Assembly: GCF_039532215.1 (NCBI RefSeq)
Contig: NZ_BAAARN010000001.1
Location: forward strand, 1,349,942-1,413,941
DNA length: 64,000 nucleotides
Origin: Pedococcus aerophilus
GTDB lineage: Bacteria; Actinomycetota; Actinomycetes; Actinomycetales; Dermatophilaceae
Direction of reading: 5' to 3'
The position numbers and the translations under genes are program-made. Below, in pieces: positions 4,934 through 25,235 of the stretch. The notes beneath the pieces were generated by a model, which worked only from the letters and a program-made list of their open reading frames with translations, was not told the origin of the DNA and did not search any database. Each line of letters begins with the position of its first letter. The stretch's first letter is position 1.

Positions 4934-6054
4934 CCGTCAGCGACGAGATCCTCGTCGACGTCAAGGACGTCAAGGTCCACTTCCCCATCAAGCGCGGGGT
5001 CATCTTCGACAAGACGGTCGGCCACGTCTACGCCGTCGACGGCGTGGACCTGCAGATCCGCAAGGGCGAGACCTACGGCCTGGTCGGTGAGTCCGGGTGC
5101 GGCAAGTCCACCCTCGGGCGCGCCATCCTCAACCTCGAGCCGCCGACGTCGGGCTCGGTCGAGTTCGACGGGATCGACATCGCTGCCCTCAAGGGCGAGG
5201 AGCTGCGGCACAAGCGCCAGGACATCCAGATGGTGTTCCAGGACCCGATGGGCAGCCTCGACCCGCGCCAGACCGTGGAGTCGCTGCTGCTCGAGGGCAT
5301 GAAGGCGCACGGCCTCGCCAAGGACGGGAAGCAGGCGAACACCCGGCTGCGCGACCTGCTCAAGGCGGTCGGGCTGCCGGTCGCGGCGCTGAAGAAGTAC
5401 CCGCACGAGTTCTCCGGCGGACAGCGCCAGCGCATCGGCATCGCCCGCGCGCTGTCGGTGAACCCCAAGCTCATCGTCGCCGACGAGCCGGTGTCAGCCC
5501 TCGACGTGTCGGTGCAGGCGCAGGTCATCAACCTCCTCGAGGAGCTGCAGGACGAGTTCGGCCTGACCTACCTCGTGGTGGCCCACGACCTCGCCGTCGT
5601 GCGCCACATCAGCGACCGGATCGGGGTCATGTACCTCGGCGCGATCGCCGAGGAGGCCGACGCGGAGGACCTCTACACCAAGCCGCTGCACCCCTACACG
5701 CGGGCGCTGATGTCGGCCGTCCCGGTGCCCGACCCGGTGATCGAGGACCGTCGCGAGCGGATCCTGCTCCAGGGCGACCTCCCCTCCCCCGCCAACCCGC
5801 CCACCGGCTGCCGGTTCCACACCCGGTGCCCGTGGCGGCAGGACACCAAGTGCGACACCGAGCGGCCGCTACTGCGTTCGCTGAAGATCGCCGGGGTCCC
5901 GGAATCGCACCGCGTGGCCTGCCACTGGGCCGAGCAGATCGAGTCCGGGGAGCTGAAGATGCACACCGTCAAGGCATCGCTCACCGCCCAGACCGACCTC
6001 ACCAGCGGTGGCGACGACTTCCTCGGCCCGGCGTCGGTCCAGGAAGCCCTCTGA
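4930..6054 (+). CDS. dppF: Peptide ABC transporter ATP-binding protein, DppF type
   Basis: Second ATPase subunit, 374 residues from the GTG at 4930, which overlaps the dppD stop. Walker A is GESGCGKST, the signature FSGGQRQRIGIARAL and Walker B LIVADEPVSALD. The C-terminal extension has the GCRFHTRCPWRQDTKC cysteine cluster typical of OppF/DppF, followed by an unusually long tail of about 40 residues. Last gene of the importer operon; a strong hairpin follows 36 nt later. Confidence 0.94.
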   Translation: MTVSDEILVDVKDVKVHFPIKRGVIFDKTVGHVYAVDGVDLQIRKGETYGLVGESGCGKSTLGRAILNLEPPTSGSVEFDGIDIAALKGEELRHKRQDIQMVFQDPMGSLDPRQTVESLLLEGMKAHGLAKDGKQANTRLRDLLKAVGLPVAALKKYPHEFSGGQRQRIGIARALSVNPKLIVADEPVSALDVSVQAQVINLLEELQDEFGLTYLVVAHDLAVVRHISDRIGVMYLGAIAEEADAEDLYTKPLHPYTRALMSAVPVPDPVIEDRRERILLQGDLPSPANPPTGCRFHTRCPWRQDTKCDTERPLLRSLKIAGVPESHRVACHWAEQIESGELKMHTVKASLTAQTDLTSGGDDFLGPASVQEAL

Positions 6055-6089
6055 CGCAGCCCACCACGGCCCGTCCGGTCCGGCACCTC

Positions 6090-20850: not shown

Positions 20851-23385
20851 TCACGGGGTCGCCGTGGTGCGCGCCACTGCCCCGGGTGCCGCCGCAGGTG
20901 CCGGCGCAGGGGCGTCGGCAGGTGCCGCGGGCGACGCCGTGCTCGCGGGCGTCGTCGTCCCGGAGGTCGAAGACGCGCTGGGCGACGCGCTCGGTGACGC
21001 GCTCTGGCTCTGCGGCGACGACGGGCTCGGCTCGCTCGACGACGAGGGGGCCGAGGTCCCGCTCGTCGCAGTCCCGCCCGAGGTCGGGGACGGCGCGCTG
21101 CCCGACGTCGTCGCGCCGGTCCCGGACGTCGTCGGCGTCGTCGACGACGTGGCAGTCGTCGACGGAGCCGTCGAGGTCGTGGCGGTCGAGCCGGTGGTGG
21201 CCGACGGGCTGCTCCCCGGCTCCGGCTCGATCCAGGCAGGGTCCTGCCGCAGGATGGCGAGGATCTGCTGCTCGTACGCGCTCAGGCGGCCCTGGAGCTC
21301 GCTCAGCGGGACGTCCTGGATCGTCGCACCGAAGGCCGAGATCTCCGCCCACAGGGCATCGAGCGCCGCCGTGCTCTGGGCGTTGAGCGGACCGGACAGG
21401 GTCACCACGAGCTGCGTGGCGAGGGCCTGGGTGACGCACTGGACGCAGTTGTAGTTGACGGCGGCAGCGACGTTCTCGGGCACGATGACCTGTGCGTCGC
21501 CGACGATGACCACGACCTGGAACGCCACGGCCACGGCCTGGCACCCCGTGCAGGACGCGAGGGCGTAGGCCTCGTTGGCGTTGGCGACGGTGTCGCCGTC
21601 GGCCCAGACGAGGGCGAAGGCGACGTCGTAGAGCGAGGAGCCGTCGGTGGTGTTGACGGCCATGGCCTGGTTGTCGCCCTCCCCCGGCGGCAGCGGCTTG
21701 TCGAACGGGAAGACCCAGGTCGGCAGGGCCGAGCCGTCCGGCGCGGTCTGGCCGGCGCGCGGCACCATGACCACGGCGAGCCGGGGCGCGTCCGGGGTCC
21801 CCAGGGCCGCACCCTGTGGGAGGATCGCCCGACCCGTCCCATGCCGGCCCTCCTCGATCCGGGTCGGCGCACCGGAACGCACCAGCGTCGCGTTCACCGC
21901 GTCACCGACGGTGCCCCGTTCGTAGGCCTGCACCGGCCGGTAGGTCCCCTGCTGGGGCCACCACGCCCAGACCAGCCCGGCCACGACGGCGAGCGCCGCG
22001 ACCCCGGCGACCCCGCGCCGTACGGGGTGGCCCTCGGTCCGGCGCCACGTGCCCACGGCGACCTGCTTGACGAAGCGGGACACGATGAAGGCGACACCGG
22101 CGACGGGCAGCGAGATGGCCACGATCGACAGGACCCGCACGGCCACCGCCAGGAGGTCACCATCGGCGAGCTGGCTCTCCAGGCGGGCCCACTGACGGCC
22201 CACCGAGGCCCACGCCGTCCCGGCCACCCGCGGGAAGCTCAGGACCATCATCACCAACGAGAACGCCAGGATCGGGACGACGACGAGCACCCAGGTCGTC
22301 ACCACGGCCCGGGCCCACGGCTTGAGGACCTTGGCCTCGGGGTCGTTCCAGTGCTTCGGGAGCAACGACACGAGAGTGGGCCTGATCCGGTGGTAGAGGT
22401 CCGGGACACCGGTGACGTCGGCCAGCACGTGGTAGCCGTCGAAGCGCACCAGCGGCGCCAGCTGGCGCACCATCTGCAGGACCTGGGTCGCGATGATGAG
22501 CAGGATCGCGTCCCAGCCCGTCGCCCACCACACCCCGAACATCGCCACGGCGACGATGGCGTTGAAGTACAGGCCGCCGAGGTCGGTGCGCACCCGTCCG
22601 GCACGGCCGAGGCGGTAGCTGTCGGTCACGTCAGTGTAGAACGCCGGCCACACGAGGTACAGGCCGGTGCCCATCGCCCCGGGGGTGGCACCGCCGTACC
22701 GCGCGGCCGCGGCGTGACCGAACTCGTGGAACCCGGCGGACACGACCGTGAGCGCGAACACCGCCAGGAGCAACGCCGGCTGGTCGAAGGCCTGGTGCGT
22801 CGCGGATGCGAGACCCTTGTGCCACAGGACCCAGCCACAGACCGCGAAGAACGCCGCCATGACCAGGGCGACCACCACGGGCGCGAACAGCAGCGCGAAC
22901 GGCGCCGTCGCCCTGCGCGTGACGTCGGGGTCGGTGACGACGTAGCGGAATCGCAGTCCCAGCAACGGATTCGCGCGCTTCAGCTCGGGGTCCGAGCCGT
23001 CCGCCTTCTTGAGGACCCCGATGGTGCGGAGCTTCGCGTCGCAGAGCGTCGCGACGTCCTCGGCCCGGACCTGTCGCCCTATCGCCGCACCGACCGCCTC
23101 GGCGATCTGGGTGGTGGTGCGGCGGCCGTCGACCTGCTCGAGGACGGCATACAGCAGGGGCGTGAGCTGGATCGTCTGGCCGTCGCCACGTCGCACCAGC
23201 GCCGGCGCGACGCGGTACCCCGACCCGGGCACCTCGCCCAGGAGCTGCACGCCGTCGGCGAGGACGGGGACGTCGATACCGGTCGGCTGGACGTTCGTGG
23301 CGGTCGCTGAGCCTGCCCTCGAACCGGTCGGTTCGGGGGCAGGCTGGCGCCCGGTCGGGGCGCCGGGCCCCTCGAAGGGAGTCAC
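20851..23385 (-). CDS. Multidomain membrane metalloprotease with PqqD/RRE-like N-terminus and CxxC outer domain
   Basis: 844 residues. Residues 60-128 resemble a PqqD/RiPP-recognition winged helix (IQLTPLLYAVLEQVDGRRTT, then DVATLCDAKL). A site-2-protease-like membrane domain (about 158-470, some ten helices) has the zinc motif HEFGH at 220-224 and a DGYH at 316-319 as the third-ligand region. After the last helix (460-476) lies an outer domain (480-720) with two CxxC pairs: Cys612/Cys615 and Cys647/Cys650. The final 120 residues are Ser/Thr/Pro/Ala-rich. YydH-type RiPP proteases share the membrane core. It starts 21 nt after the repeat protein gene. Substrate and biological role are not known to me. 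Confidence 0.8.
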   Translation of the reverse strand: MTPFEGPGAPTGRQPAPEPTGSRAGSATATNVQPTGIDVPVLADGVQLLGEVPGSGYRVAPALVRRGDGQTIQLTPLLYAVLEQVDGRRTTTQIAEAVGAAIGRQVRAEDVATLCDAKLRTIGVLKKADGSDPELKRANPLLGLRFRYVVTDPDVTRRATAPFALLFAPVVVALVMAAFFAVCGWVLWHKGLASATHQAFDQPALLLAVFALTVVSAGFHEFGHAAAARYGGATPGAMGTGLYLVWPAFYTDVTDSYRLGRAGRVRTDLGGLYFNAIVAVAMFGVWWATGWDAILLIIATQVLQMVRQLAPLVRFDGYHVLADVTGVPDLYHRIRPTLVSLLPKHWNDPEAKVLKPWARAVVTTWVLVVVPILAFSLVMMVLSFPRVAGTAWASVGRQWARLESQLADGDLLAVAVRVLSIVAISLPVAGVAFIVSRFVKQVAVGTWRRTEGHPVRRGVAGVAALAVVAGLVWAWWPQQGTYRPVQAYERGTVGDAVNATLVRSGAPTRIEEGRHGTGRAILPQGAALGTPDAPRLAVVMVPRAGQTAPDGSALPTWVFPFDKPLPPGEGDNQAMAVNTTDGSSLYDVAFALVWADGDTVANANEAYALASCTGCQAVAVAFQVVVIVGDAQVIVPENVAAAVNYNCVQCVTQALATQLVVTLSGPLNAQSTAALDALWAEISAFGATIQDVPLSELQGRLSAYEQQILAILRQDPAWIEPEPGSSPSATTGSTATTSTAPSTTATSSTTPTTSGTGATTSGSAPSPTSGGTATSGTSAPSSSSEPSPSSPQSQSASPSASPSASSTSGTTTPASTASPAAPADAPAPAPAAAPGAVARTTATP

Positions 23386-23406
23386 GTCAGCGTGTTCTGG
23401 CGCCGA

Positions 23407-24081
23407 CTACTGCGAGACGTCCGAGGACTGGTCCGTCGTCGCGTTCGCGTCGGCGTCGATGTCCTGGGTGATGATGGCGTCCTGCTGGGCGAGCGCCGCG
23501 GCGTCGGAGTCGATGGAGCCGACGTTGGCGGCCACGGCCGCGTCGATCGGCGCTGCGACGTTGGCGTTGGCGGCCACGGCCCCTGCGATGGGCGCGGCGA
23601 GGTCGAGGTCGGCCGCGAGGTCCACGTCGACGTTGAGGAGGGGTCCGTCGAGGGCACCACCGGCGTCGATCGCGTCGGTCGGCGAGGCACCGTCCACCGG
23701 GACGGTGGGCTCGGTCGTCGGCGTCTGGGTGGCCTCGTCCACGGGGGCCGGCGCGGCGTCGGCCTGGTCGATGGTCGAGTCCTGGCTCCCCTCGGCGACG
23801 GCTTCACCGGTGATGCCCTGGTCGATGATGACGCCCTGGTCGGCGAGCGCCTGGGCCTCCGAGCCGACGGACAGCACGTTGGCGCCCACGGCCGCATCGA
23901 TCGGGGCGGCGACGTTGGCGTTCGCCGCGACCGCGAGGTCGATCGGCGCAGCGGCGTCGAGGCCGATGTCGAGGTCCGCATTCAGGTCGAGGAGGCTGAT
24001 GACCTCCTTGTCGGGCAGTGCGGTGCTGCCTTCGGCAGCGAGCTCCTCCGCGGTCAGCGGCGGCATGGTCGAGTCAGTCAT
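23407..24081 (-). CDS. Repeat-rich acidic protein paired with the metalloprotease
   Basis: 224 residues from the ATG at 24081 (GGAG upstream). No signal peptide. The N-terminus (residues 1-32, ending LPDKEVISLLDL) resembles a leader. Two long copies of about 58 residues (37-95 and 154-212) follow, each made of AAPIDxAVxANxNV units and ending in an ALAxQxxIIxQxI segment, joined by a Thr/Pro/Asp-rich linker. Almost no aromatic or basic residues and no Cys. Encoded immediately before the metalloprotease, so it is the natural candidate for its substrate or binding partner. I recognise no characterised family. Confidence 0.75.
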   Translation of the reverse strand: MTDSTMPPLTAEELAAEGSTALPDKEVISLLDLNADLDIGLDAAAPIDLAVAANANVAAPIDAAVGANVLSVGSEAQALADQGVIIDQGITGEAVAEGSQDSTIDQADAAPAPVDEATQTPTTEPTVPVDGASPTDAIDAGGALDGPLLNVDVDLAADLDLAAPIAGAVAANANVAAPIDAAVAANVGSIDSDAAALAQQDAIITQDIDADANATTDQSSDVSQ

Positions 24082-24201: not shown

Positions 24202-25107
24202 TCAGAGGGCGGGCAGTCCGTCCTCGAGGTACGCCGCCGGGCCGGCGTGCGTCGCGAGGAAGGCCAGCAGGCGCTGGTTGTATGGCGCGACGTGCCGGTC
24301 GAGTTCCTCCTCCGCCACCCAGTGGACGGCGCGGATCTCCCGGGGCTGGAGCGTCGCGCGGGCGACGAAGTCGTCGTCGACGACCCCGAGGTCGAAGACG
24401 AAGACCGTCGCGTCGGACCAGCCGCGCCACGGCGGCAACCAGTTGACCGCGAGCAGCCCGCGGACCTCGACGTCGACACCGAGCTCCTCCCGGACCTCCC
24501 TCACCACGCAGTGGGCCGGCGACTCGTGCGGGTCGACGACGCCTCCCGGGAGGTCCCACTCCTGCTTGTAGACCAGCTCGCACAGCAGCACTTGGCCACC
24601 GGCGTCGCGGAGCACGCCCTGGGCGATGGCGCGCTTGGTGGGCAGGGCGGAGTTGAGCTGGGCGATGAAGCCCTCCCTGCTCTCCGGCGACGGGTCGTCG
24701 TCGAGCACCCCCAGCACCACGACGTCACCGCGGCCCCCAGGGACGTTCTGCGAACGGCTCACGCCCTCCTTGCGCAACCCGGCCCGCATGGCTGCCCGGA
24801 CCGAGTCGCGGTCGGCGTCCTCGACCCTCGCCTCGACCCGCCGGAGCCCCAGGTCGTCGAACGCCCAGCGGAGCACGAGGCGCAGGGCCCGCTCGACGAT
24901 GCCGACGCCGCGGTACTCCGGCACGAAGACCCAGATGACCTCGGCATCACCGTCGGCGCCCAGCAGCAGCTCGACCCTGCCGACCCGCTCGTGCTGCCAG
25001 TGCACCTCGAAGGCCCGGACGTCGTCCTGGTCGGGTTCCTCCCCGACACCGCGGACGACGAGGTCGTCATCGACCAGGGCGGGCTCGGGGGCCGCTGCGG
25101 TGCTCAT
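24202..25107 (-). CDS. GNAT-Nudix fusion protein
   Basis: 301 residues from the ATG at 25107. The N-terminal half (1-140) is a GNAT acetyltransferase, with VIWVFVPEYRGVGIVERALR as the acetyl-CoA motif. The C-terminal half (about 160-300) is a Nudix hydrolase whose box is complete: GGVVDPHESPAHCVVREVREEL. Fusion of the two suggests the acetyltransferase and pyrophosphatase act on one nucleotide or cofactor derivative, or that one part is regulatory. Divergent from rmuC. Confidence 0.85.
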   Translation of the reverse strand: MSTAAAPEPALVDDDLVVRGVGEEPDQDDVRAFEVHWQHERVGRVELLLGADGDAEVIWVFVPEYRGVGIVERALRLVLRWAFDDLGLRRVEARVEDADRDSVRAAMRAGLRKEGVSRSQNVPGGRGDVVVLGVLDDDPSPESREGFIAQLNSALPTKRAIAQGVLRDAGGQVLLCELVYKQEWDLPGGVVDPHESPAHCVVREVREELGVDVEVRGLLAVNWLPPWRGWSDATVFVFDLGVVDDDFVARATLQPREIRAVHWVAEEELDRHVAPYNQRLLAFLATHAGPAAYLEDGLPAL

Positions 25108-25235
25108 CGCCCGCACGACCCGGACAGGGCTCCCGGGCGCACGGGGTGGTGTGGTGCGGTCTCTGCCATGTCCGGCACGCTACCTGCCGCGCTGCCTCCC
25201 GCTCCCTGTCGGTGGGGGCTGGCACAGTCCTGGCC

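Follow-up and report, generated by a model that had tools for sequence, protein, structure and literature searches.

A leader-bearing repeat protein and its RRE/site-2 protease in Pedococcus aerophilus: a putative minimal processing pair with an outer domain that follows the type of substrate core

Two adjacent minus-strand genes in a 64,000-nucleotide (nt) stretch of Pedococcus aerophilus DNA (GCF_039532215.1, contig NZ_BAAARN010000001.1, positions 1,349,942–1,413,941; hereafter the window) encode an acidic repeat protein and a membrane metalloprotease that carries a PqqD/RRE-like domain and an outer domain with two CxxC pairs. Comparison of related loci shows that the pair belongs to a real and widespread system of leader-bearing precursors and RRE/site-2 proteases (S2Ps), a variant of the RRE-dependent leader-peptidase systems. 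What is new is a third element—the outer domain—which tracks the core type of the substrate and may be related to the substrate itself. We favour, at a probability of roughly 0.6, a minimal leader-guided processing pair whose core, once processed, meets a related outer domain.

The repeat-protein gene comes first and the protease gene follows after a 21-nt gap; frames and translations bear out this arrangement (a 224-residue acidic protein, 21 nt, an 844-residue membrane metalloprotease), which a preliminary description had read from the sequence alone. Each gene gave a single match in its own genome. The repeat protein has 40 acidic residues and 1 basic (K/R) residue and ends in ...SSDVSQ; an alternative TTG start is open 12 codons 5′ of its ATG, and the alignment of its relatives begins at the ATG. 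Compared with itself, the protein matches best at an offset of 118 (48/106 identities; the top of 1000 shuffles over an equal offset range was 33). The 'two 58-residue copies' described earlier are about right, given that the copies have 39 residues and 135/192 nt in common over a 64-residue block. Precursors of this kind matched no known family above the cut-off in Pfam (13 precursors) or NCBIfam (14 precursors), the few sub-threshold matches being taken as noise, and no signal peptide was seen on them by eye.

A structure search of the protease model matched solved RRE domains at residues 37–129, in agreement with the PqqD/RRE-like N-terminus proposed earlier; the modelled segment has the three-stranded sheet and three-helix winged-helix fold that such a domain requires. 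HEFGH, DGYH and the two CxxC pairs stand, as first read, at positions 220, 316, 612 and 647, and the HExxH and distal DG zinc motifs lie within the membrane core, as in S2Ps of the M50 clan. The only relative without DGY (L139) is interrupted by a stop. The protease scores 11.7 bits against Pfam Peptidase_M50 (PF02163; gathering cut-off 27.2), and among curated families it comes closest to the daptide leader peptidase (NF041824), at 97 bits (E 1.3e-27) where the equivalog cut-off is 300.

Relatives were gathered into a discovery set of 37 loci—the window, 18 close actinobacterial loci (from 25 found by a named-genome alignment search), 2 Streptomyces plasmid loci, 6 same-genus loci and 10 family loci. 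A plain protein query gave no matches in genome contigs; conserved core segments used as the query gave the named-genome loci. The plasmid matches H3 and H4 and the distant loci L026–L032 and L083–L085 stand outside the precursor counts, and an unrelated M50 protein from the genus search (G004) was left out. Upstream of the protease and on its strand, 37/37 loci have at least one open reading frame (ORF) whose core varies but whose leader, built around L-P-x-[RK], is common to them all, a pattern found post hoc; a repeat-protein orthologue stands upstream in 6/6 further same-genus loci fetched that have the protease. The leader is common to every precursor type seen and the cores differ: two-unit repeat proteins like that of the window (type I), single-unit peptides with LPDRE(A/Q)MSLINAN..., mostly of 67–81 amino acids (type II), peptides of ~70 amino acids with LPGREALG... 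(type III), Gly-rich cores with two Cys and LPERAVLS... (type IV), peptides of 63–80 amino acids with LPxRETL... (type V) and, in the later set only, Asn/Ser/Pro-rich cores with LPERxTL (type VI). Profile comparison of the repeat protein with the short precursors gave E 9e-12, with leader and unit both aligned. A conserved leader, variable cores and a partner with an RRE fold make up the leader–core organization of ribosomally synthesized and post-translationally modified peptides (RiPPs).

A later set of 48 loci came from 51 protease matches in 296 class genomes, leaving out the window, G010 (the same as L044 of the earlier loci) and, in G241, a second fragment lying where a contig starts. 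A hidden Markov model (HMM) built from 43 earlier leaders and then applied to this set found a leader ORF upstream on the protease strand in 45/48 loci (43/46 minus two loci identical to discovery ones; 37/40 new clusters at 90% identity), and the three misses have 70, 24 and 46 bases of upstream DNA. All matches above 8 bits had the orientation of the protease gene; in each of L128, L150, L155 and L156 one match overlaps the mechanically extended protease frame. Because the leader motif of the earlier loci recurs in this way, we regard the association as real. Phylogenetic profiles point the same way: the repeat protein was found in 9/119 family genomes, each of which also has the protease, and the short-precursor profile matched in 42/296 class genomes, 41 of these among the 46 that have the protease (~1 in 6 of those sampled). 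Four of the five protease genomes without a short-precursor match have type IV/VI precursors by the leader HMM, and the fifth (G230) is truncated by the end of a contig; in the only class genome with a precursor and no protease match (G206), the precursor lies close to the end of a contig (bases 631–882, minus strand). The co-occurrence across actinobacteria that the preliminary description proposed to check holds, and every examined locus with enough upstream DNA has a leader-bearing partner. Chance co-occurrence was considered and is rejected by the later set and the two profiles.

According to an HMM of the CxxC region, the outer domain is fused to the protease in type I loci and is mostly a separate downstream gene where the short precursors have a β-type unit. 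It is present in 28/29 judged β-unit-core loci of the later set and in 0/14 with other cores (five of the 48 are omitted—L122 and L141, with downstream DNA missing, and L131, L139 and L145, without upstream DNA—and two loci identical to discovery loci, L118 and L135, are included), and in 31/32 β-unit-core and 0/4 other-core loci of the discovery set (omitting L014, which ends within the protease). We assigned the core types by hand from the sequences, some two-unit proteins scoring poorly with the short-core HMM. Its form follows the core as well, being fused in 13/13 two-unit loci of the later set and separate in the 15/15 single-unit loci that have it. Both states occur, and track the core type, within Streptomyces (L007, L019 and L025 versus L006 and L024) and within genus g79 (L118, L120, L124, L126 and L130 versus L134). 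The domain is likely located outside the cell, judging from sequence, since separate copies have signal-peptide-like N-terminal stretches (L132, L007, L013 and L019; by eye) and the fused copy comes after the final membrane segment (458–476); hydropathy additionally marks residues 617–635 within the domain, where the predicted model has strands. Whole-model structure searches listed no match for this part. In L008 an additional stand-alone CxxC outer domain (5203–6057, +) lies 5′ of the precursor, the protease there already having a fused copy. Opposite-strand ORFs 5′ of the precursors in L137, L138 and L140 are recovered by the outer-domain HMM at E 4e-18 to 5e-24, which suggests divergent extra or sole copies.

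The outer domain is likely related to the β-type unit of the substrate. At spacings 0/4/6/14/18/20 the short precursors have N, A, N, A, A and Q, and unit 2 of the outer domain has N, A, N, T, A and Q; the turn Ser..Ser of the precursor unit is often Cys..Cys in the outer domain. In a ranking by an HMM from 25 short cores, 18/32 outer-domain ORFs (best E 3.3e-5) came ahead of the first unrelated ORF (of 4028); several of them aligned with the HMM at the three expected places. The real score was never reached by residue shuffles in 7/10 outer domains (300 each, 10 of 13 domains) or, for the best-domain score, by parity-keeping shuffles in 6/10 (500 each). The alternative is convergence of outer domain and precursor on one β-architecture. 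The first 'unrelated' ORF of the ranking (E 3) is a small basic protein within a type II precursor cluster (L013:6387–6671, +), in which a strand-patterned stretch, NIVAAVNVAQSDTTTHASSSQHLDIVQN, recalls the precursor unit.

Several results count against the reading that we favour. The short-core HMM reached E <0.01 in only 4/32 outer-domain ORFs and left 14/32 below the first unrelated ORF, that of the window at rank 79 (E 22). Residue shuffles reached the real score 1, 4 and 35 times for L010, L016 and L015; parity-keeping shuffles did so 1, 3, 8 and 78 times in L012, L013, L016 and L015 and, with the summed score, 7 times for the window and 275 times for L015, which clearly failed both controls. 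Alignment of short precursors with outer domains by hhalign gave E 0.0024 but a probability of 12%, and that of the type I repeat protein gave nothing real. Two β-unit loci lack the outer domain (L143 in the later set, L020 in the discovery set), and in L138 and L140 the sole copy in the fetched DNA lies upstream on the opposite strand. Kinship confounds the co-segregation of core and outer domain, 13/14 non-β loci being from one family, and the non-β loci L157 and L159 have <1500 bases of downstream DNA. Foldseek alone found no match for the protease model at E ≤ 0.001, and the predicted structure of the repeat protein (predicted local distance difference test score, 46) is too poor for its fold to be judged.

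From the analysis as a whole we infer the following route. The cytosolic RRE domain would bind the leader of the repeat protein (LPDKEVISLL) and hand it to the S2P core, which would cut near the leader/core boundary at the membrane; such leader-guided processing is, in our estimate, very probable. The acidic two-unit core would then reach the outside either through the protease or along a general route, and would meet the outer domain of the protease—probably the same β-type unit with CxxC at its turns—which may serve as cap, anchor or template. That the outer domain is the cognate partner of the core seems reasonably probable; ordered assembly of the cores is a tentative proposal, and a fuller version, in which the S2P releases β-unit subunits for a surface structure that polymerizes from a subunit-related nucleator domain fused to the protease, is rather unlikely. 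The many repeat-derived peptides envisaged in the preliminary description are not favoured as the product; the interpretation given there finds support in part.

Curli offer a parallel to the proposed assembly step: CsgA and CsgB consist of strand–turn–strand units with N/Q ladders, and the nucleator is related to the subunit. The repeat signature here is a different one, and Pfam scans of 13 precursors listed no curlin match, such scans being prone to miss remote repeats. Among leader peptidases the closest is MpaP/DapP of the daptides, likewise an RRE-fused intramembrane metalloprotease with several leader-bearing precursors; MpaP is reported to remove the daptide leader in an RRE-dependent manner (PMC10036551), and the leader residues mutated in that report, E-L-D-P-M-E-x-P, seem loosely like E-L-L-P-x-R-E here. 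The window protease differs in its additional outer domain and Ser/Thr/Pro tail, the window precursor ends in Gln rather than Thr, and the 13 window neighbours scanned in Pfam (6 also in NCBIfam) include no alcohol dehydrogenase, aminotransferase, methyltransferase, DUF-RRE or ABC gene. The epipeptide protease EpeP/YydH/LiaK (NF058609; the window protease scores 36 bits, cut-off 225) is also of the S2P type; it is reviewed as being thought to carry out both cleavage and export (PMC10885120), and is thus a precedent for a system without an exporter. TmcP of the TMcins (DUF3267) is described as a leader peptidase of the S2P clan that works within the membrane (PMC13252029), but it is of another family and its partners in that account are the escort TmcE, the DsbA-like TmcD and the ABC transporter TmcBC. 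No description of the leader-plus-RRE/S2P family appears among the entries listed for the open-access PMC literature, to which the search was confined.

Neighbouring ORFs (≥90 amino acids) were compared all against all in 82/85 loci, with clusters kept when they spanned four or more loci and ≥30% of a group; the ORFs are mechanical rather than from a gene caller, so that short genes can be missed, and flank lengths vary, some being short. Among the clusters listed, no exporter or tailoring gene is common to most loci of any type, so the system, with its two or three genes, looks minimal. The earlier description of a minimal system stands for the window too: its scanned neighbours include neither an ATP-binding cassette (ABC) exporter nor a radical-SAM gene, the latter a feature of epipeptides. 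ORFs with both Walker A and LSGG motifs occur in 7/85 loci, and 4/12 type III loci (3 distinct, since L019 equals L118) have a MacB/FtsX-type permease and an ABC ATPase 3–4 kb away on the opposite strand. A radical-SAM-like Cys motif was seen in 3/85 loci, in two of which it overlaps the protease gene in a different frame. The window pair is flanked by thioesterase and YchF genes on one side and by genes for a GNAT–NUDIX protein, RmuC and a cytochrome P450 on the other. The P450 gene (26369–27973, −) lies ~2.3 kb 5′ of the repeat protein and is syntenic in 5/7 same-genus loci. Regulators of the BTAD type (SARP-like; one exemplar confirmed in Pfam) stand near 8/8 type V precursor pairs (L073–L077 and L146–L148).

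Three other explanations were weighed. A minimal bacteriocin or peptide-antibiotic system, with killing peptides secreted or displayed on the surface, often in sets, would account for conserved leaders with variable cores, for the two or more leader ORFs in 14/17 short-precursor β-type loci of the later set and for the BTAD-type regulators of type V loci. The products of S2P-type proteases—epipeptides, daptides and TMcins—are reported to be bioactive (PMC10885120, PMC10036551, PMC13252029), and CdzC/CdzD is a reported precedent, a bacteriocin of two proteins which forms aggregates at the surface of Caulobacter cells (PMC5380434). We nevertheless consider this unlikely: no immunity-gene candidate is common to most loci of a type among the neighbour clusters listed, the acidic two-unit core is unlike a typical membrane-active peptide, and the outer domain is left without explanation. 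The same domain is unexplained, and the long, strand-patterned conserved cores are unexpected, if the protease instead frees a pheromone or envelope signal sensed by an adjacent regulator. M50 proteases do process pheromones in other systems, and besides the BTAD-type genes there is a helix–turn–helix-like gene near 10/12 type III loci (slightly below the Pfam cut-off in the one scanned); window-type loci, however, have no recurrent regulator among the clusters listed, and we judge signalling improbable.

A true RiPP pathway, its modifying enzymes encoded close by in certain lineages or else at other sites in the genome, would fit the RRE fold, the relationship to the daptide peptidase, the Gly-rich type IV cores with two Cys and the P450 gene, which 4 further same-genus loci likewise have close to the pair. 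Yet the P450 motif occurs in 7/85 loci, of which 5 are syntenic same-genus loci that also have YchF and other flanking genes in common, and a homologue is found in L156; the window P450 matches the RiPP family at 39.6 bits against a cut-off of 525. With no enzyme common to the majority of loci of any type (no search was aimed at enzymes farther away), this pathway too has a small probability.

If the favoured leader-guided pair and its surface assembly are right, RiPP-style leader logic would build a surface structure rather than a small natural product, with processing and templating on one molecule; the exchangeable cores (β-unit, Gly/Cys and Asn/Ser/Pro) would make it a general leader-addressed platform for surface delivery across actinobacteria. 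That the outer domain follows the core type predicts a direct partnership between the two. The very small size of the system also provides a clean setting in which to ask whether an S2P alone delivers a protein to the outside, as suggested for epipeptides.

Table 1. Features of the precursor and protease genes, with positions in the window.
Feature	Position	Strand	Remarks
Precursor gene (acidic repeat protein made up of a leader and two β-type units joined by a linker)	23407..24081	-	224 amino acids, ATG start
Leader region, residues 1-34, with LTAEELAAEGSTALPDKEVISLLDLN	23980..24081	-	L22, P23, K25 and E26 invariant in 15 aligned rows
Unit 1, residues 43-106	23764..23955	-	Q82, Q88 and Q100 invariant; Q106 nearly so
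Linker, residues 107-160, variable, Pro/Thr/Asp-rich	23602..23763	-	length varies widely across orthologues
Unit 2, residues 161-224 (C-terminal end of the protein)	23410..23601	-	Q200, Q206, Q218 and Q224 invariant
RRE/PqqD, site-2 (M50-type) protease and outer-domain fusion	20851..23385	-	844 amino acids, GTG start
RRE/PqqD-like domain, residues 37-129	22999..23277	-	model fits RRE domains of known structure that bind leaders
Membrane site-2 protease core and last transmembrane helix, residues 165-476	21958..22893	-	model matches site-2 proteases
HEFGH zinc motif, residues 220-224	22714..22728	-	HExxH in 85/85 proteases
DGYH motif, residues 316-319, presumed third zinc ligand	22429..22440	-	DGY in 84/85 proteases
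Outer domain, residues 570-715: three N-x-A-x-A stretches, CxxC after two, plus two helices	21241..21678	-	
CTGC, residues 612-615	21541..21552	-	outer domain
CVQC, residues 647-650	21436..21447	-	outer domain
Ser/Thr/Pro/Ala-rich tail, residues 736-844	20854..21180	-	like tails in most of 18 aligned relatives

The GNAT acetyltransferase–NUDIX fusion (24202–25116, −) lies directly upstream of the window pair; L078, L079 and 4 further same-genus loci have relatives of it close to the pair. Near type VI loci, DUF2142 (6/13), DUF1003 (5/13) and aldo/keto reductase (4/13) genes recur. No outer domain was found near the type IV loci L006, L021, L022, L024 and L134, and type IV may be another class of product from this protease family.

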